Shown one piece after another: positions 1,711 through 52,777 of a DNA stretch of 64,000 nt (positions are counted from its first letter, which is position 1; each line of letters begins with the position of its first letter). Made by a program: the position numbers and the translations under genes. The stretch comes from Lachnospiraceae bacterium. GTDB lineage: Bacteria > Bacillota > Clostridia > Lachnospirales > Lachnospiraceae. A model generated the notes under the pieces. It was not told where the DNA came from, did not search any database, and saw only the letters and a list, made by a program, of their open reading frames with translations. Location of the stretch: positions 30,100-94,099 of the forward strand of contig JAIDOW010000054.1 of assembly GCA_029063085.1 (NCBI GenBank). The letters are read 5' to 3'.

Positions 1711-2082
1711 TTACTTTTGACAATTTGGAATATGATTTTTAATAGCTTCAAAGCTTTCCTTGCTGATTACGTGCTCCATCCGGCAGGCATCTTCGGAAGC
1801 GATTTTTTCATCAACTCCCAGACTGATCAGCCAGGAAGTGAAAAGTTCGTGGCGTTCATATATCATATCCGCTATTTCTTTGCCTGACTCCGTTAAAGTA
1901 ATATAGCCGGCTTCCGAAACGGTTATATATTTTTTTTCACGCAGATTCTTCATGGCAATACTGACACTGGATTTCTTAAATCCCAGCTCTGTTGCAATAT
2001 CTACAGACCGGACCACGGGTAAGGTTTTACTAAGGATTAATATGGTTTCTAAATAATTTTCCGCAGATTCATTTATATTCAT
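1711..2082 (-). CDS. DtxR/MntR-family metal-dependent repressor
   Basis: Transcription factor of 123 residues with an N-terminal winged helix ('SVDIATELGFKKSSVSIAMKNL', recognition helix) followed by the metal-binding/dimerisation part ('ERHELFTSWLISLGV', 'ACRMEHVISKESF'), whose His/Glu/Cys pattern fits the DtxR iron-sensing fold. It lacks the C-terminal SH3 domain of full-length DtxR, like MntR. The ORF track starts at a TTG (2094), but that codon lies within the Shine-Dalgarno region; the ATG at 2082 with GGAGG just upstream is the better start. It is divergent from the feo operon, so it is very likely its iron-responsive repressor. Inference: iron rather than manganese, from context. Confidence 0.85.
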   Translation of the reverse strand: MNINESAENYLETILILSKTLPVVRSVDIATELGFKKSSVSIAMKNLREKKYITVSEAGYITLTESGKEIADMIYERHELFTSWLISLGVDEKIASEDACRMEHVISKESFEAIKNHIPNCQK

Positions 2083-2191: not shown

Positions 2192-2223
2192 TTGACAACT
2201 AATAGAAATTAGAATAAACTAAC
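2192..2223 (+). promoter_or_regulatory. feo promoter with overlapping candidate DtxR operator
   Basis: TTGACA and TAAACT with 17 bp between them. Inside the spacer is CTAAT-AGAA-ATTAG (2199-2212), a perfect inverted repeat, and AACTAAT (2197) and AACTAAC (2217) form a direct repeat with 20 bp start-to-start spacing. A repressor bound here would block RNA polymerase. The same direct repeat with the same spacing recurs at 47848-47874. Confidence 0.6.
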
Positions 2224-2283: not shown

Positions 2284-2493
2284 ATGCCGCTTACGATGGT
2301 AAAAGAAGGAGAAGCTAATGTGATTAAGAAGGTGGGAGGAAAGGAAGAAACCAGAAAATTTCTGGAGAACCTTGGTTTTGTATCAGGAGGAACTGTTACA
2401 GTGATTTCCATGTTAAATGGCAATGTGATTGTAAATGTAAAGGATTCCAGAGTTGCGATTGGCAGGGATATGGCAAACCATATTATTGTGTAA
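2284..2493 (+). CDS. feoA: FeoA domain protein, first copy
   Basis: Small cytosolic SH3-like protein (69 residues) that acts with FeoB in ferrous iron import. The typical FeoA pattern is visible: 'KFLENLGFVSGGTVTVIS', then 'NVIVNVKDSRVAIGRDMANHI'. The ORF track begins at an ATG at 2266, but that overlaps the GGAGAT ribosome binding site; the ATG at 2284 sits at the right distance. First gene of the feo operon, followed by a second FeoA gene and feoB. Two FeoA genes in tandem are common in clostridia; which copy is the functional FeoB partner cannot be told from sequence. Confidence 0.9.
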   Translation: MPLTMVKEGEANVIKKVGGKEETRKFLENLGFVSGGTVTVISMLNGNVIVNVKDSRVAIGRDMANHIIV

Positions 2494-2522: not shown

Positions 2523-2744
2523 ATGAAAACATTAAAAGAAGTGCCCTGTGGGCAGAATGTTACGGTGAAAAAACTGACCGGTGATGGACCAGTAAAAAGA
2601 AGGATTATGGACATGGGGATTACAAAAGGTGTCGATATTTATGTCAGAAAGGTCGCTCCGTTAGGGGATCCTGTGGAAGTAACAGTAAGAGGATATGAAT
2701 TGTCCCTTCGGAAAGCGGATGCACAAATGATTGAGGTGGAATAA
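2523..2744 (+). CDS. feoA: FeoA domain protein, second copy
   Basis: A 73-residue SH3-like FeoA protein with the hallmark 'KRRIMDMGITKGVDIYVRKVAPLGDPVEVTVRGYELSLRK'-type architecture: a helix ending in M-D-M-G, then a beta barrel with a G-D-P turn. This copy is closer to the canonical FeoA consensus than the first copy. AAGGAGA lies 7 bp before the ATG at 2523; the GTG at 2520 used by the ORF track is less likely. It lies 29 bp after the first feoA and 127 bp before feoB, in the same transcription unit. Confidence 0.92.
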   Translation: MKTLKEVPCGQNVTVKKLTGDGPVKRRIMDMGITKGVDIYVRKVAPLGDPVEVTVRGYELSLRKADAQMIEVE

Positions 2745-2871
2745 GAGATAAAATTTTACCCATTGGTTAGTTATGGCTAATCAAAGATAGAAGATACAAA
2801 CAAAAGAGTTTAGAGAAACAGGAAGTTGTTTCACTAAAAATGAAGAAAGGATAAAAGAAGGGAGAATAGAA

Positions 2872-5253
2872 ATGTCAGTAAAAATAGCATTAGCAGGTAA
2901 TCCAAACTGCGGGAAGACAACATTATTTAATGCATTGACCGGTTCCAATCAGTTTGTTGGAAACTGGCCGGGTGTTACGGTAGAAAAAAAGGAGGGTAAA
3001 TTAAAGGGGCATAAGGATGTTACGATTATGGATCTTCCGGGGATTTATTCGTTATCACCATATACTTTAGAGGAGGTAGTTGCCCGTAATTATCTGATCT
3101 CTGAAAGACCGGATGCGATTATTAATATTGTTGATGGGACTAATATCGAAAGAAACCTTTATTTGTCCACGCAGATTATGGAATTGGGAATACCGGTTGT
3201 GATGGCAGTCAATATGATGGATATACTGGAAAAAAACGGTGACAGAATCTATATTGACAAATTAAGTGAAAAATTGGGATGTGAAGTGATCGAAATTTCA
3301 GCTTTGAAAGGAAGTGGAATTGAAAAACTGGCAGAAAAGGCAGTAGAACTTGCAAGAAAAAGCAATGTTTCATTGCCGGTGCATGAATTTGCTCCTGAGG
3401 TGGAAACGATCATTCAGGCTGTGGAAGAGAAAATAGACGGAGTTCCAGAAATGCAGAAACGCTTTTTTGCGATCAAACTGCTGGAAAAGGATGATAAGAT
3501 TTTAAGTCAGATGAAGAATGCTCCGAATGTGTCGCTTGAAATTAATAAGTTAGAAGATGCAATGGATGATGATACGGAAAGTATCATTACAAATGAGAGG
3601 TATGTCTACATTTCTTCTATTATTGGGGAGTGTGTAAAGAAAGCACAGGGGGAAAAGTTAACGGGCTCCGACAGGATTGATAAGATTGTAACAAATAGAT
3701 GGCTTGCCCTGCCCATTTTTGCAATCGTTATGTTTCTGGTTTATTATGTTTCCGTTACCACTGTGGGCGGATGGGCTACGGATTGGGCCAATGATGGTGT
3801 GTTTGGTGACGGATGGCATTTGTTTGGGATAGGCACATCTGCTTATGAGGAAGATGCGGCAACATATAGTCGTGCAGATCAGATTATGGCAGCCTTCGAA
3901 GAAGGAACTGTGACAGTTGATATCGTAAATGAGGAAGATGAAGTAATTGAGAAAGTTCAGATATCGGACAGTGTTGTAGAAGAAGCAAGGAATGTGGTAG
4001 AGACAGGAGAACCGGATACCTCCGAATATGGTGTGTGGGTTCCGGGAATACCGGTGTTGGTGGAAAAAGGTCTTGATGCCATGAACTGTGCAGACGGTTT
4101 GAAGAGCTTGATTTTGGACGGTATCGTAGCTGGTGTGGGTGCTGTTTTAGGCTTTGTGCCACAGATGCTGGTGTTGTTTATTTTTCTTGCATTTTTGGAA
4201 GCGTGTGGTTATATGGCCAGAGTTGCATTTATCATGGACCGTATTTTCCGTAAATTTGGTCTTTCCGGAAAATCTTTTATTCCGATGCTGATAGGAAGCG
4301 GCTGTGGGGTTCCCGGAATCATGGCTTCCCGTACCATTGAAAATGACAGGGATCGTAAGATGACTATTATGACGACTACTTTTGTTCCTTGTGGAGCCAA
4401 ATTACCAATTATTGCATTGGTTGCCGGTGCATTTTTTGATAATTCGGGCTGGGTTTCATGGAGTTCGTATTTTGTAGGGATTGCAGCAATTATCTGTTCC
4501 GGTATTATTTTAAAGAAGACAAAGATGTTTGCAGGAGATCCGGCACCGTTTGTTATGGAGCTTCCGGCATATCATATGCCGACGGTTGGAAATGTTTTGA
4601 GAAGTATGTGGGAACGCGGCTGGTCCTTTATTAAGAAGGCGGGAACGATCATCCTGCTCTCTACTATTGTTCTATGGTTTTTACAGGGATTTACATGGGA
4701 TGGAGGTTTGACAATGCTGGAAGCGGAAGAGCTTGACCGGAGTTTCCTTGCTTCTATCGGAAATGTGATTGCACCACTTTTTGTACCTCTTGGATTTGGT
4801 GACTGGAAAATGGCAGTTGCTACTGTGACAGGACTTATTGCAAAAGAAAATGTTGTGGCAACCTTTGGTGTCTTATTTGGGTATGCCGAAGTTGCCGAGG
4901 ATGGTGCAGAAATATGGGGACAGCTTGCCGGAGCGATCACACCAGTTGCAGCTTATGCATTTTTGGTATTTAATCTTCTTTGTGCACCATGTTTTGCAGC
5001 AATGGGAGCCATAAAGAGGGAAATGAATAATGTGAAATGGTTCTGGTTTGCTATTGGATATCAGACTATACTTGCCTATATTGTTGCTCTTTGTATTTTT
5101 CAGATTGGAACATGGATTGTGGAAGGGATTTTTGGTGCAGGAACAATAATTGCAATTTTATTTGTGCTGGGATTCATTTATCTGTTATTTAGACCTTATA
5201 GAGAAAGTAAGACACTAAACGTAGATATGAAAAGAGTTGTCGGTACCAAATAG
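2872..5253 (+). CDS. feoB: Ferrous iron transport protein B
   Basis: Inner-membrane Fe(II) transporter of 793 residues. The N-terminal cytosolic G domain shows the P-loop 'GNPNCGKTT' (about residue 9), 'DLPGIYSL' (G3) and 'NMMD' (G4), followed by the helical spacer domain and then a membrane domain containing two Gate motifs ('GSGCGVPGIMASRT', 'FVPCGAKLPI'). Between the first membrane helix and the next there is an acidic loop of roughly 100 residues rich in Glu and Val ('VNEEDEVIEKVQ') that is predicted to be outside the membrane; clostridial FeoB proteins vary in this loop. Start has GGGAGA upstream. The operon partners are the two FeoA genes before it and the Cys-rich peptide after it. Confidence 0.96.
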   Translation: MSVKIALAGNPNCGKTTLFNALTGSNQFVGNWPGVTVEKKEGKLKGHKDVTIMDLPGIYSLSPYTLEEVVARNYLISERPDAIINIVDGTNIERNLYLSTQIMELGIPVVMAVNMMDILEKNGDRIYIDKLSEKLGCEVIEISALKGSGIEKLAEKAVELARKSNVSLPVHEFAPEVETIIQAVEEKIDGVPEMQKRFFAIKLLEKDDKILSQMKNAPNVSLEINKLEDAMDDDTESIITNERYVYISSIIGECVKKAQGEKLTGSDRIDKIVTNRWLALPIFAIVMFLVYYVSVTTVGGWATDWANDGVFGDGWHLFGIGTSAYEEDAATYSRADQIMAAFEEGTVTVDIVNEEDEVIEKVQISDSVVEEARNVVETGEPDTSEYGVWVPGIPVLVEKGLDAMNCADGLKSLILDGIVAGVGAVLGFVPQMLVLFIFLAFLEACGYMARVAFIMDRIFRKFGLSGKSFIPMLIGSGCGVPGIMASRTIENDRDRKMTIMTTTFVPCGAKLPIIALVAGAFFDNSGWVSWSSYFVGIAAIICSGIILKKTKMFAGDPAPFVMELPAYHMPTVGNVLRSMWERGWSFIKKAGTIILLSTIVLWFLQGFTWDGGLTMLEAEELDRSFLASIGNVIAPLFVPLGFGDWKMAVATVTGLIAKENVVATFGVLFGYAEVAEDGAEIWGQLAGAITPVAAYAFLVFNLLCAPCFAAMGAIKREMNNVKWFWFAIGYQTILAYIVALCIFQIGTWIVEGIFGAGTIIAILFVLGFIYLLFRPYRESKTLNVDMKRVVGTK

Positions 5254-47021: not shown

Positions 47022-47036
47022 AATGGAGATAACCCA

Positions 47037-47660
47037 ATGAGTGAAGCAGAACAGACAACATTAAACTTAATTCTTTCGGCTGCCATGCAGGAATTTCTTG
47101 ACAAGGGCTTCAAATCTGCTTCCTTGCGGAATATTGTCAAAATGGCAGGTGTGACAACAGGTGCGTTCTATGGTTACTATGACAGTAAGGAAGATTTATT
47201 TGAAGCACTGGTAGGTGAACAGTACGACTATTTTATGGACTGCTTTTGCAAGGCACAACGCAAGTTCGCAGAAATTCCGCCAGAGGAACAACCAAACAAT
47301 CTTAGCAATATTTCCGGTGAGTGTATGTATGAAATGCTTTTATATGCCTATAAACATTTGAATGAATTTAAGCTCATTCTTTGCCATTCAGAGGGAACAC
47401 GTTTTTCAAAACTGATTGATGCAATGGTAGAGATAGAAACAAAAGGAACACATGATTATTTAGCGGTTCTTAAAAAGATAGGCAGACCGGCTCCACCCAT
47501 TGATGAACGGTTAGAGCATATATTGATTACGGGAATGTTTAACACATATTTTGAGTTGATTATACATGAAATGCCACTTGAAGAAGCAAAGCATTATCTA
47601 ACAGAAATGAGAGCTTTTTATACTGCCGGCTGGTTGAAAATTATGGGGCAGTCAAATTGA
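47037..47660 (+). CDS. TetR/AcrR-family regulator
   Basis: A 207-residue repressor: N-terminal HTH 'ILSAAMQEFLDKGFKSASLRNIVKMAGVTTGAFYGYYDSKEDLFEAL' and an all-helical ligand-binding C-terminus. The start is the ATG after TGGAGAT; the ORF-track frame upstream runs into the relaxase remnant. It is followed on the same strand by the two ABC half-transporter genes, 285 bp away, and probably controls them together with itself. Ligand unknown. Confidence 0.92.
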   Translation: MSEAEQTTLNLILSAAMQEFLDKGFKSASLRNIVKMAGVTTGAFYGYYDSKEDLFEALVGEQYDYFMDCFCKAQRKFAEIPPEEQPNNLSNISGECMYEMLLYAYKHLNEFKLILCHSEGTRFSKLIDAMVEIETKGTHDYLAVLKKIGRPAPPIDERLEHILITGMFNTYFELIIHEMPLEEAKHYLTEMRAFYTAGWLKIMGQSN

Positions 47661-47827
47661 CTTTTGCGGCAGTTGCCAAATAGCTATGCTTGCATAGATA
47701 TTTGGTTCAATGCTTGTAGAAATAAAAACGGAAGACTTGTCGGGGGAATCTGCCAGTAATTTATGTTGCTTGAACATTAGTAGTTCAAGCAGATATGATA
47801 ATGGAAAGCATGTGCTTTCCATTATAT

Positions 47828-47874
47828 TTGACATGTAGGTTAGTTGAAACTAACAAAAAGAAGGATGAACTAAC
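47828..47874 (+). promoter_or_regulatory. ABC operon promoter with candidate metalloregulator operator
   Basis: TTGACA at 47828; in its spacer the inverted repeat GTTAGTT-GA-AACTAAC (47839-47854), and AACTAAC again at 47868, 20 bp after the first. The -10 (TAACAA) is weak. The AACTAAC pair with 13 bp between copies is the same arrangement as at the feo promoter. A hairpin (GATAT...AGG / CCT...ATATC, about 47884-47918) follows in the leader. Confidence 0.5.
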
Positions 47875-47945: not shown

Positions 47946-49799
47946 ATGAAAAAACAGTCTAATTTATCAAGATTGATGACCTATGCCGGTGGGCATAGGA
48001 TATTAACCTATCTTTCTTGGATACTGTCTGTGATGAGTGCGCTGTTGGCTCTTGTGCCTTTTTGGTATATATGGCGTATCATTCACGACATACTGGAAGT
48101 TTCACCGGACTTTGCACAGGCTGGGGATGTCACACGCTATGGCTGGTCCGCTGTACTATTTGCGGTTATATCTATTGTTGTATATATAGCCGCTTTAATG
48201 TGTTCGCATATAAGTGCGTTCCGGGTTGCTGCTAATATCCGAAAAGAGCTTATGCGGCATATTACTGCGTTACCGCTTGGAGTAACAGAAAAGTATGGAA
48301 GCGGGAAATTGCGGAGAATAGTTAATAATTCCAGTACCGCCACGGAAACGTACCTTGCACACAGGCTGCCTGATAAAGCAGGTGCAATTGCCACACCCAT
48401 AGGACTGCTCTTTTTACTGCTTGCGTTTGATTGGCGGTTAGGGCTTTTAAGCCTTGTTCCCGTCTGCCTCGGTTTTCTCATTATGATGAAAATGACTGGA
48501 AAAGATATGGAACAGAGGATGGAACAATACCAAAATGCACTTTCCGATATGTCAAATGAAGCAGTTGAATATGTAAGGGGCATTCCTGTAGTAAAGACTT
48601 TCGGGCAGACAATTTTTTCTTTTAAGCGTTTCAAAGATGCGATTGACAATTACGAAAAATGGGTAATCGCATATACAAAAGGATTGCGTTTGCCTATGAT
48701 GCTCTATACGACGGCAATCAATGGTGTATTTGCGTTTTTGATTGCGGGAGGTCTTATCTTTACAAGAGGTGGTGTGACAAATGAATTGCTGCTAAATCTT
48801 ATCTTCTATATTGTGATTACACCCGTTATCGGTACAACACTCACAAAAATCATGTTTATGAGTGAGGACTCAATGATCGTAGGAGACGCAATTAACAGGA
48901 TTGATGAAGTGCTGAACGAAAAGCAATTATCTGAAAGCAAGGTGAATAATGTACCGAATGACAATGGGGTTACATTAGAACATGTTAGTTACAGCTACAA
49001 GGGAAGTTCGACAGGGCAGAAAGGCGGTCTGGCCCATGACGGTGAGAAAAACGCGCTCAATGATGTGTCATTGAGAGTTAAGCCAGGACAGGTGGTAGCA
49101 TTAGTAGGTGCATCTGGCGGCGGTAAAACGACCCTTGCAAATATCGTTGCTAGATTTTTTGATCCCGGGGAGGGGCGCATACTGATAGGAAATATTGACA
49201 TACGCGATATTCCGAAAGAAACATTGATGAATAAGGTATCTTTTGTATTTCAGAACAGCCACCTTATCAAAGCGTCTATATTGGAAAATGTGCGTATGGC
49301 AAAACCAGCCGCAACACGTGAAGAAATCGTCCATGCTCTGGAAGCTGCACAGTGCCTGGATATTATTGAAAAATTACCGAATGGCATAGATACGGTTATT
49401 GGAACAAAAGGCGTATATCTGTCTGGTGGTGAACAGCAGCGAATTGCGATTGCCCGTGCGATTTTGAAAAATGCACCTATCCTGATTCTTGATGAGGCCA
49501 CGGCATTTGCTGATCCCGATAATGAGGTACGCGTTGGGCAGGCTTTATCTGCTCTTTCTAAAGGGGACCCACAGAGCAATTGCTCTAGAAAAACGGTTAT
49601 TATGATTGCACACAGATTATCGTCAATCACAGATGCAGATTGCATTTATGTACTGCAAGACGGTGAGATTGTCGAAAGTGGCACTCATAGTCAACTGCTA
49701 GAGAAAAACGGAACATTTACACGTATGTGGAAAAATTATTCTGAAGCGGCAGAATGGAAAATCTTTAATGAGAATAAGGGATTGGAGGTTAAAGCATGA
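47946..49799 (+). CDS. ABC half-transporter (permease-ATPase), subunit 1
   Basis: A 617-residue exporter-fold half-transporter: about six membrane helices, then the ATPase with Walker A 'GASGGGKTTLANI', signature 'YLSGGEQQRIAIARAIL', Walker B 'ILILDEATAFADPDNE' and 'VIMIAHRLSSI'. The D-loop reads 'AFADPDNE' instead of the usual 'SALDxxxE', hinting at an asymmetric heterodimer with the next gene. Type is that of YbtP/IrtA-like proteins that import metal chelates or export drugs. AAGGAGG precedes the ATG at 47946. The last 4 bp overlap the partner gene. Confidence 0.92.
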   Translation: MKKQSNLSRLMTYAGGHRILTYLSWILSVMSALLALVPFWYIWRIIHDILEVSPDFAQAGDVTRYGWSAVLFAVISIVVYIAALMCSHISAFRVAANIRKELMRHITALPLGVTEKYGSGKLRRIVNNSSTATETYLAHRLPDKAGAIATPIGLLFLLLAFDWRLGLLSLVPVCLGFLIMMKMTGKDMEQRMEQYQNALSDMSNEAVEYVRGIPVVKTFGQTIFSFKRFKDAIDNYEKWVIAYTKGLRLPMMLYTTAINGVFAFLIAGGLIFTRGGVTNELLLNLIFYIVITPVIGTTLTKIMFMSEDSMIVGDAINRIDEVLNEKQLSESKVNNVPNDNGVTLEHVSYSYKGSSTGQKGGLAHDGEKNALNDVSLRVKPGQVVALVGASGGGKTTLANIVARFFDPGEGRILIGNIDIRDIPKETLMNKVSFVFQNSHLIKASILENVRMAKPAATREEIVHALEAAQCLDIIEKLPNGIDTVIGTKGVYLSGGEQQRIAIARAILKNAPILILDEATAFADPDNEVRVGQALSALSKGDPQSNCSRKTVIMIAHRLSSITDADCIYVLQDGEIVESGTHSQLLEKNGTFTRMWKNYSEAAEWKIFNENKGLEVKA

Positions 49800-51526
49800 T
49801 TAAGACATTGCAAAGACGCTTTGCGTTATCAAGACAAGGGGCTGTTGATTTGATAAAAGGTTGTATTGCTTGTGCTCTTCAGGATATATCCTTTATGTTT
49901 CCTGTCGGGCTTCTGTATTACTTTGTGATTGATACAATGAATGGAGGTGTAAATGGAAATCGCGTTGTTTTCTATGTAACTGCAGCTTTGGTTTGCTTAT
50001 GCCTGATATTTATTGCAACTTGGTTTCAATATAACGCTACTTATTTAGCTACTTATGTGGAAAGCGGGGTAAGGCGTATTTCTTTAGCGGAAACTTTACG
50101 TAAAATCCCATTGTCTTTTTTTGGTAAAAAAGACCTTGCCGATTTGACAAATTCTATCATGGGAGATTGTGCAACACTTGAAACAGCATTTTCCCATTAT
50201 GTACCCGCTTTGGCAGGTTCCCTTATTTCAACAACACTGATTGCAATCTGCCTTTTTGCTTATGACTGGCGTATGGCTCTTGCAGCAGTTTGGGTTTTGC
50301 CAATTGCGTTTACAATCACGTTCTTTTCAGCCCGTATACAGGAATATTTCAACCATAAATCTGTAACGGCAAATGTTGCACTTGAAAGCGGTGTGCAGGA
50401 GTGTATCGAATGTTTACAGGATTTAAAGGCGAATAATGCAGAAGAAAGCTATTTGAAAGGACTTGATAAAAAAATAGATTATGTGGAAAAAAGGCATATT
50501 ATTACAGAATTTGGAACAGCCTTGTTTGTTGTTTCATCAACACTGATATTAAAGTTCGGGATTGCTACAGTTGCGCTTGTAGGTTCTACCCTGCTCATTC
50601 GTGGAGAGATTACTATTCCCTTGTTTTTTATGTTTTTGCTTGTTGCTTCCAGGCTGTATGCTCCGCTTGAGGGAGCATTACAAAATCTTGCTGCGGTGAT
50701 TTCCACCAAAACAAACATAAACCGTATGAATGAAATTTTTGATCAGCCCATTCAGACAGGCAGCAACAGGGTCACGAATAAAGGCTATGATATTGTGTTT
50801 GACCATGTAGGTTTTGCCTACAACACTGGAGAAACCGTATTGAAAGATGTGTCCTTTACGGCAAAACAAGGGGAAGTTACCGCCTTAGTCGGACCGTCTG
50901 GCGGTGGCAAAACTACGGTATCGCGTCTTGCTGCGAGGTTTTGGGATATAAGCAGGGGCAAAATCACTGTCGGAGGTATGGACATATCGAAGATAGAGCC
51001 GGAAACATTATTATCACTGTACTCTATTGTGTTTCAAGATGTAACGCTGTTTAACAATACAATCATGGAGAATATCAGAATAGGCCGAAAGGATGCTACG
51101 GATGAAGAAGTGATTGAAGCAGCAAGGTTAGCAAATTGTGAGGAATTTGCAGCAAAGCTTCCGGATGGTTATAACAGTATGATTGGTGAAAATGGTTGTG
51201 AACTTTCAGGTGGTGAAAGGCAGCGTATTTCTATCGCCCGGGCATTCCTCAAAAATGCACCTATTATTTTACTGGATGAAGCAACGGCAAGCCTTGATGT
51301 GGAAAATGAAACATTGATACAGTCCGCTTTGTCAAGGCTGATAAAGGATAAGACTGTACTTGTTATCGCTCACCGTATGCGAACCGTAAGCGGTGCAGAT
51401 AAAGTTGTTGTACTTTCTGACGGTACGGTTGCAGAGCAGGGGGAACCGGGGGAACTGATGAGTACAGGCAAGATTTACCCGCACATGGTAAAGCTGCAAA
51501 TGATTAGTGAGGAATGGGGTATTTAG
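49796..51526 (+). CDS. ABC half-transporter (permease-ATPase), subunit 2
   Basis: A 576-residue partner of the preceding gene: six membrane helices, ATPase with Walker A 'GPSGGGKTTVSRLAARF', Q-loop 'YSIVFQDVTLF', signature 'ELSGGERQRISIARAFL', Walker B 'IILLDEATASLDVENE', 'VLVIAHRMRTV'. This half has the canonical D-loop and so likely carries the consensus catalytic site. ATGA overlap with subunit 1 indicates coupled translation of a heterodimer. Substrate unknown; iron-chelate import and drug export both fit. Confidence 0.92.
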   Translation: MIKTLQRRFALSRQGAVDLIKGCIACALQDISFMFPVGLLYYFVIDTMNGGVNGNRVVFYVTAALVCLCLIFIATWFQYNATYLATYVESGVRRISLAETLRKIPLSFFGKKDLADLTNSIMGDCATLETAFSHYVPALAGSLISTTLIAICLFAYDWRMALAAVWVLPIAFTITFFSARIQEYFNHKSVTANVALESGVQECIECLQDLKANNAEESYLKGLDKKIDYVEKRHIITEFGTALFVVSSTLILKFGIATVALVGSTLLIRGEITIPLFFMFLLVASRLYAPLEGALQNLAAVISTKTNINRMNEIFDQPIQTGSNRVTNKGYDIVFDHVGFAYNTGETVLKDVSFTAKQGEVTALVGPSGGGKTTVSRLAARFWDISRGKITVGGMDISKIEPETLLSLYSIVFQDVTLFNNTIMENIRIGRKDATDEEVIEAARLANCEEFAAKLPDGYNSMIGENGCELSGGERQRISIARAFLKNAPIILLDEATASLDVENETLIQSALSRLIKDKTVLVIAHRMRTVSGADKVVVLSDGTVAEQGEPGELMSTGKIYPHMVKLQMISEEWGI

Positions 51527-51763: not shown

Positions 51764-52234
51764 ATGAATATAAAAGATGTAATAAATAATGAAAATGTAG
51801 ATTTTTCAGGAATTGAATTGTCATACTTTTTGCTAGGATTATTGAGTGCTTTTGATAATCGTTTTCAAGCTATGGCAGATAAGACTATGGGAGAAATCAG
51901 TTGGAAGCAATTTTTTGCTATTATCTGCATTAATCTTTGCAAGGAGAATCCTACCATTAAAGAACTTGCGGAAATATTAGGCAGCTCTCATCAAAATGTG
52001 AAGCAGATTCTTCTGAAACTTGAGAAAAAAGGCTTTGTGAACATTTATGCTGATGCAGAAGACAGAAGAAAACAGCGAATTGAGCTGACTGACTATTGCA
52101 GGGACTTCTGTGAAAAAAATGATGAAATGAGCACGAAAATTATGACAAAGATGTTTGAAGGTATCTCCCCGGAACAATTGCAGTTGACTATTCACACCAT
52201 CATACAGATTGATAACAATTTAAAAGAAATATAA
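51764..52234 (+). CDS. MarR-family regulator
   Basis: A 156-residue winged-helix repressor: 'ITWKQFFAIICINLCKENPTIKELAEILGSSHQNVKQILLKLEKKGFVNIYADAEDRRKQRIELT'-type core, with the wing 'DAEDRRKQRIELTDY'. Cysteines in the HTH-flanking helix could make it redox-sensitive, but this is speculation. CTGGAGGG precedes the ATG. The flavodoxin gene follows after 12 bp, so the regulator and a flavoprotein form an operon behind the double palindrome. Confidence 0.93.
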   Translation: MNIKDVINNENVDFSGIELSYFLLGLLSAFDNRFQAMADKTMGEISWKQFFAIICINLCKENPTIKELAEILGSSHQNVKQILLKLEKKGFVNIYADAEDRRKQRIELTDYCRDFCEKNDEMSTKIMTKMFEGISPEQLQLTIHTIIQIDNNLKEI

Positions 52235-52246
52235 GGAGTACTTTTT

Positions 52247-52777
52247 ATGAATAAAGGAATTATTTTATATCAGTCAAAATATGGTGCGACTAAGAAGTAT
52301 GCACATTGGTTACAGATAGAAACTGGATTTGATTGGTCAGAGACTAAATCCGCAAGCCTGCAACAACTTTGTGAATATGATACCATAATCCTTGGTGGTG
52401 GAGTATATGCATCTGGGATTGCAGGATTGTCCTTCTTAAAGAAAAATATTCATAATTTGGAAGATAAAAAAATACTTGTATTTTGTGTAGGAGCATCACC
52501 GTATGATGAGAGTGCCATTGCCCAGATTAGGAAGCTGCATTTTAAGGATGGACTAAGTGAAGTTCCATTAGTATACTGTCGAGGAGCATGGGACGAGGAT
52601 GCAATGACATTTAAGGATAGAACTTTATGTAAGATGCTGCAGAAGGTTGTGGCAAAAAAAGATCCTGCTGAATATGAGGTTTGGGAAAAAGCTTTAATGT
52701 GTGCTGTGGGTCAAAAGTGTGACTGGACAGACAAAAAGTATTTGGAACCAGTCATGGAGTATCTGCAAAAGGAATAA
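52247..52777 (+). CDS. Flavodoxin domain protein
   Basis: A 176-residue protein of the flavodoxin_5/HemG-like group: 'GIILYQSKYGATKKYAHWL' (FMN phosphate loop), 'YDTIILGGGVYASGIAGLSFLKKN' and 'KILVFCVGASPYDE'. It carries electrons through FMN; in other bacteria relatives oxidise protoporphyrinogen, but here haem synthesis genes are not nearby. TAAGGAG precedes the ATG. Cotranscribed with marR. Confidence 0.85.
   Translation: MNKGIILYQSKYGATKKYAHWLQIETGFDWSETKSASLQQLCEYDTIILGGGVYASGIAGLSFLKKNIHNLEDKKILVFCVGASPYDESAIAQIRKLHFKDGLSEVPLVYCRGAWDEDAMTFKDRTLCKMLQKVVAKKDPAEYEVWEKALMCAVGQKCDWTDKKYLEPVMEYLQKE

Follow-up and report, generated by a model that had tools for sequence, protein, structure and literature searches.

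A predicted DtxR-type operator shared by feo and a YbtPQ-like ABC pair in a Lachnospiraceae bacterium

Introduction

Most low-GC Gram-positive species control iron through Fur and keep DtxR-type proteins for manganese (PMC10317159). The window analyzed here, a 64,000-nucleotide stretch from a Lachnospiraceae bacterium, raises the question of whether a DtxR-type protein could take charge of iron in such a host. A gene of this family adjoins feo, as the original prediction had said, and a short repeated word at the feo promoter recurs before a pair of ABC half-transporter genes. Which protein recognizes this shared element, which metal it senses, and what the ABC pair carries are considered in turn. 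It is highly probable, judging from the sequences compared below, that the DtxR-family protein binds a palindrome at both places with Fe2+ as co-repressor, and represses both feo and an ABC importer resembling YbtPQ/IrtAB.

The two loci

The dtxR-feo locus contains the following features:

1711..2082, minus strand: DtxR-family metalloregulator of 123 aa, divergent from feo; both Pfam domains (PF01325, PF02742) pass the cut-off, the sole match in the genome
2192..2197, plus strand: -35 box TTGACA of the feo promoter (TTGACA-17-TAAACT, 10 of 12), kept in relatives
2197..2203, plus strand: accessory half-site AACTAAT, 20 bp from the operator right arm on the 5' side; CTAAY kept in relatives, offset enriched
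2208..2223, no strand assigned: predicted feo operator ATTAGAATAAACTAAC, over the -10 box TAAACT (2215-2220); footprinted at dtxR-feo loci, with the same spacing in 40/40
2284..2493, plus strand: feoA-like gene 1, from sequence reading
2523..2744, plus strand: feoA-like gene 2, from sequence reading
2766..2781, no strand assigned: second predicted feo operator GTTAGTTATGGCTAAT, in the feoA2-feoB gap; comparable sites in several relatives
2872..5253, plus strand: feoB; TIGR00437 above cut-off

The features around the ABC pair are these:

47034..47660, plus strand: TetR-family regulator gene (PF00440), upstream of the ABC pair
47798..47825, plus strand: hairpin 3' of tetR, the likely end of the tetR transcript; an inverted repeat read from the sequence, not reported by the terminator scan
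47839..47854, no strand assigned: predicted ABC operator GTTAGTTGAAACTAAC, footprinted in 21/34 ABC1 relatives
47868..47874, plus strand: accessory half-site AACTAAC, 20 bp from the operator right arm on the 3' side; retained at the closest ABC loci, L062 and L063
47946..49799, plus strand: ABC1, YbtP-like half-transporter; PF00664 and PF00005, best half-size PDB match YbtP
49796..51526, plus strand: ABC2, YbtQ-like half-transporter; PF00664 and PF00005, best half-size PDB match YbtQ

The palindrome behind the repeats

The directly repeated words on which the original prediction was built are where it had placed them: AACTAAT at 2197-2203 with AACTAAC at 2217-2223 before feo, and AACTAAC at both 47848-47854 and 47868-47874 before the ABC pair, with 20 bp from start to start in each case. 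The inverted half-sites it had described are also found, as ATTAG at 2208 and GTTAG at 47839. When the 3.34-Mb genome is scanned for exact AACTAAY-N13-AACTAAY, only these two copies, both inside the window, turn up, where the dinucleotide composition of the window would predict 0.19. AACTAAY by itself shows no enrichment in the window (12 seen vs 22 expected), and the signal is thus carried by the spacing rather than by the word.

As a candidate operator, the direct repeat gives way to a 16-bp palindrome, RTTAG-N6-CTAAY, because GTTAG-N6-CTAAC is the unit conserved in relatives; the direct repeats are its edge. Arms and gap read ATTAG-AATAAA-CTAAC at feo (2208-2223) and GTTAG-TTGAAA-CTAAC before the ABC pair (47839-47854). 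At feo, the right arm of the palindrome is formed by the second repeat, AACTAAC at 2217, with the extra half-site 20 bp to its 5' side; before the ABC pair it is formed by the first repeat, AACTAAC at 47848, with the extra half-site 20 bp to its 3' side. The claim that the arrangement is the same at the two places therefore fails, and the palindrome starts 16 nt from the start of TTGACA at feo vs 11 nt at ABC. The TTGACA said to lie upstream of both repeats is indeed present (2192-2197 and 47828-47833), but it is kept in relatives at feo and not at ABC. A third site in the window, GTTAG-TTATGG-CTAAT at 2766-2781, had been absent from the original prediction; through it feoB might be controlled separately, or elongation might be blocked.

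The more extended form GTTAGTT-N2-AACTAAC has two exact copies in the whole genome (0.009 expected), one before the ABC pair and the other on contig C23. When all unique sites are aligned on the right arm, another CTAAY is most strongly enriched at offsets -20 and +20. It is feo that accounts for the main part of the -20 peak, since many of the “other loci” are also dtxR-feo loci, and the +20 peak is small, with 8 sites that include ABC and other loci. A distance of 20 bp corresponds to two full helical turns, which would put a second dimer on about the same face of the DNA, and we infer that this dimer binds cooperatively at the half-site.

Conservation of the site at feo and ABC

The feo site was followed in a sample of 80 further public-genome loci, 77 of them with enough upstream DNA. 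Of these loci, 41 carry it no more than 450 bp from the dtxR start, and in all 40 of the relatives' dtxR-feo loci that have TTGAC it starts exactly 16 nt after that box. This fixed spacing places the -10, usually TATACT or TAAACT, inside the operator. At dtxR-feo loci the palindrome arms are invariant save for the first base, in a search that itself demanded the core letters. Of the 41 feo-side sites, 28 have the CTAAY half-site at 20 bp from the right arm on its 5' side, where the original prediction had its AACTAAT. Within the genus, the DtxR-type protein was detected in 25 of 26 genomes, and where feo adjoins dtxR the intergenic DNA usually has exact GTTAG-N6-CTAAC.

For the other locus, ABC1 relatives were taken from the family and the genus, and the DNA upstream of them was inspected. 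RTTAG-N6-CTAAY lies within 300 bp upstream of the start codon in 21 of the 34, while the same search in coding DNA of equal length returns 0/34 and a Markov model predicts 0.0016 per locus (0.16%). The other 13 lack a site within 300 bp, and some have one further upstream. At the ABC1 loci the site is kept and the flanking DNA is not; likewise, the extra CTAAC 20 bp 3' is retained in the three closest ABC loci even though the surrounding DNA differs. The promoter scan gave no acceptable sigma-70 -10 for the unconserved TTGACA at 47828, and no operator was found before the MarR-type and Flavodoxin_5-type genes that follow the ABC pair (51764-52777).

Distribution of the site and its neighbors

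In the genus, 17 sites were found vs 0 controls, and in 200 Lachnospiraceae genomes 614 sites vs 84 controls. Nearly all sites returned as loci (43 of 45) are intergenic, so the outcome that would have undermined the original prediction, a pattern as frequent in coding DNA as in promoters, is not what is seen. The Pfam neighbors of the site are DUF3793 (7), FeoB (4), FeoA (4) and DtxR itself (4), together with flavodoxin, ABC, ZIP, HMA, NifH-type, heme-binding Shp and periplasmic-type binding proteins. Sites before dtxR genes, which suggest autoregulation, recur in other families of Clostridia (e.g., genomes G257, G272, G295, and G309).

The site also follows the protein. Among Lachnospiraceae, 7 of the 12 genomes without a DtxR match are free of sites, vs 26 of the 188 others (p=0.0008, kinship ignored). 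Among Clostridia, sites occur in 45 of 58 genomes having a strong DtxR match vs 9 of 50 lacking one (p=7e-10, again with kinship ignored), and the latter do not rise above the controls, with 17 sites vs 16. Exceptions exist: one genus genome, G020, has a site and no detected DtxR, and DtxR is likewise undetected in two nearly complete genomes of the family, G170 with one site and G220 with two. In G020, three operator-like palindromes stand in a row near a contig end (L014:1440-1580).

Several other loci of the genome and its relatives carry the operator. On contig C23 (L003:1501-2593; C23:16585) an exact copy precedes genes for an HMA-domain protein and a ZIP transporter, which suggests that this control extends to one more operon for metal uptake. 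Operators also lie beside a small ORF and a MacB/FtsX-type ABC gene on contig C56 (L149:5357, 5403), and before an ABC/FtsX pair on contig C35 (L151:3474); one of these FtsX-type loci has a tetR gene nearby and the other a MATE gene. DUF3793, often followed by flavodoxin, is the commonest neighbor of the operator (L006, L007, L009, L016, L104, L105, L115) and looks like an iron-starvation gene; the open-licence papers searched give no function for it.

The DtxR-type protein and its metal

The gene at 1711-2082 has both the winged-helix domain (PF01325) and the metal-binding dimerisation domain (PF02742) above the gathering cut-off, which makes its product a member of the DtxR/MntR family. The protein ends at 123 aa with no further Pfam domain, and no SH3-like C-terminal domain is present. 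Its length and its best PDB sequence matches are those of MntR. Against the NCBIfam MntR equivalogs, however, it scores 78.7 bits vs a cut-off of 153, and 67.3 vs 138.

Alignment to MntR and DtxR predicts N9, E12, H78, C100, E103, and H104 as metal ligands. MntR has Asp or Asn for Met10 and Glu for Cys102 (PMC10317159; metal-site definitions also in PMC2628430). Here C100 aligns with C102 of DtxR, the cysteine characteristic of IdeR/DtxR, in the place of E99 of MntR, and it is invariant in 58/58 and 80/80 relatives. The Met10 of the IdeR/DtxR type is absent, Asn9 occupying its position as in some MntR, and Met is found there in just 6 of 58 relatives. The predicted metal site is thus an Asn/Cys hybrid. 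The operator, a 16-bp two-arm palindrome with an optional half-site, does not have the 19-bp four-repeat form. Sulphur ligands raise Fe2+ selectivity (PMC10317159), and given a predicted regulon that includes FeoAB and flavodoxin, iron is more likely than manganese to be the signal. The sole Fur-family protein found in the genome, whose assembly is 96% complete, is closest to PerR, so that no clear Fur is present.

The ABC pair

ABC1 and ABC2 are both ABC_membrane plus ABC_tran half-transporters, encoded by overlapping genes in one operon, which is the layout of a two-subunit importer of this class. Compared with solved half-size proteins, ABC1 scores 314 bits against YbtP, 279 against IrtA, and 219 against the lipid A flippase, while ABC2 scores 282 bits against YbtQ and 275 against Sav1866, a narrow margin. 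Both subunits are nearer to YbtP/YbtQ than to exporter half-transporters. The nearest solved half-transporters being the yersiniabactin importer subunits, the idea that the pair is an iron-chelate importer rather than a drug pump is favored, and its sequence agrees with a putative iron-controlled importer of the YbtPQ/IrtAB kind, for a siderophore or iron chelate.

The operon had also been called acquired. ABC1 (L061-L064) is about 90% identical to proteins in three other genera, and at most 55% identical to those of the other genus genomes with a match. This pattern suggests transfer between genera and makes that part of the claim plausible; no integrase or element boundary was seen.

A model for shared iron control

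A model can be proposed in which the DtxR-family protein (1711-2082), loaded with ferrous iron, would bind the 16-bp GTTAG-N6-CTAAC element, present here as RTTAG-N6-CTAAY. As the feo operator covers the -10 box, this binding would block RNA polymerase. A second dimer is probably recruited or stabilized by the half-site, which lies at a distance of two helical turns. Because a palindrome of the same form stands before the ABC pair, the repressor would leave both places when iron becomes scarce, and the cell would then make the ferrous importer FeoAB together with the YbtPQ/IrtAB-like iron-chelate importer. The proposal that feo and the ABC pair are both under the resident DtxR-type regulator has withstood each computational test able to overturn it, and gains support, as a prediction, from the footprints at both loci, the sites before dtxR, and the co-occurrence with DtxR.

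Alternative explanations

The binder could be a different protein. The TetR-family protein encoded at 47034-47660 might bind 47839-47854 and, sensing a drug or substrate, repress the ABC pair, in which case the likeness to feo would be due to chance or convergence. The palindrome does lie between tetR and the ABC genes, it is short and perfect, and tetR is found upstream of many ABC1 relatives. However, some ten genomes of the genus have the feo operator but no close ABC1, the palindrome precedes many iron genes that have no tetR, and several ABC1 relatives still have it with no tetR just upstream, so that the operator does not co-occur with tetR as a TetR operator would. This highly improbable binder was set aside in view of the exact copy before the HMA/ZIP genes and of the sites at feo and other iron genes. 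The chances of a third regulator are slighter still; the genome's one Fur-family protein could play this part, but it resembles PerR, and the sites adjoin dtxR genes and track the presence of DtxR. That feo and ABC look alike through mere coincidence has a negligible probability: the words are short and AT-rich and single AACTAAY is unenriched, but footprints exist at both places in many genomes.

If the DtxR-type protein is indeed the binder, it might still sense manganese as MntR does, and govern a manganese or mixed Mn/Fe regulon. Its length, its best PDB matches, the Asn at the Met10 position, and the ZIP transporters among the site neighbors all point this way. Yet an invariant Cys replaces Glu99 of MntR, the scores fall below the MntR equivalog cut-offs, and the neighbors include FeoA/FeoB, flavodoxin, and heme- or siderophore-type binding proteins, which makes a manganese sensor unlikely. 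The direction of transport bears some doubt too, since the ABC pair might be iron-controlled and yet export a siderophore, heme, or a drug. Its half-transporters have the exporter fold, ABC2 scores nearly equally against Sav1866 and YbtQ, and tetR and MATE genes lie nearby. On the other hand, YbtP and YbtQ are the best half-size matches, in the expected order, and ABC1 is far nearer to YbtP and IrtA than to MsbA; we regard export as rather unlikely, though worth keeping in mind. Repression of feo and of a probable importer by an iron-loaded DtxR-type protein is accordingly the reading preferred here.

Significance

A broader proposal, for and against which we see the balance as even, is that the master iron regulator of Lachnospiraceae, and of Clostridia beyond that family, is not Fur but a small DtxR-type protein of MntR size with a hybrid Asn/Cys metal site, acting through GTTAG-N6-CTAAC and a second dimer on a half-site 20 bp off. 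Mobile siderophore-type ABC operons would carry the operator with them and join the new host's iron control on arrival. The open-licence literature, to which the search was confined, yielded no description of this regulon. If the proposal is true, it is a DtxR-type protein, with an operator of its own, that governs iron in a dominant family of gut bacteria. Iron-regulated genes could then be listed directly and genome-wide from the motif, among them the uncharacterised ABC system and the DUF3793-flavodoxin operon, and the motif would also offer a simple test of how mobile transporter operons enter host regulation.

Comparison with known systems

The predicted system resembles IdeR/DtxR in several respects: a DtxR-family protein with a metal-binding cysteine, TTAG/CTAA half-sites, an operator over the -10 of iron-uptake genes, and the possibility of two dimers (PMC10317159). 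It differs in that the IdeR/DtxR box is a 19-bp element of four repeats, TTAGGTTAGSCTAACCTAA, rather than the 16-mer GTTAG-N6-CTAAC (PMC10317159), and in the protein itself, which has 123 aa, no SH3 domain that could be found, and Asn at the Met10 position. IdeR/DtxR also belongs to the Actinobacteria, whereas the host here is a member of the Clostridia. MntR of Bacillus subtilis and Escherichia coli is alike in length and two-domain layout, and supplies the closest solved structures by sequence, but its Glu99 is replaced by Cys here, and genes for Feo, flavodoxin, and iron-chelate-type transporters adjoin the operator. TroR of Treponema denticola is another DtxR-family repressor with a dyad operator near the promoter, and responds to both Mn2+ and Fe2+; its target is the tro ABC operon, and it has an SH3-like domain and an 18-bp operator (PMC2628430).

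On the transport side, the siderophore importers YbtPQ and IrtAB share the exporter-fold half-transporter pair and the iron-type regulation predicted here. IrtA has an extra siderophore-interaction domain, while Pfam lists none in the ABC pair of the window, which, unlike YbtPQ/IrtAB, is preceded by a tetR gene. Finally, Clostridioides difficile offers an iron-limitation regulon in another member of the Clostridia, where it is Fur, and not a DtxR-type protein, that is used (PMC6311696).
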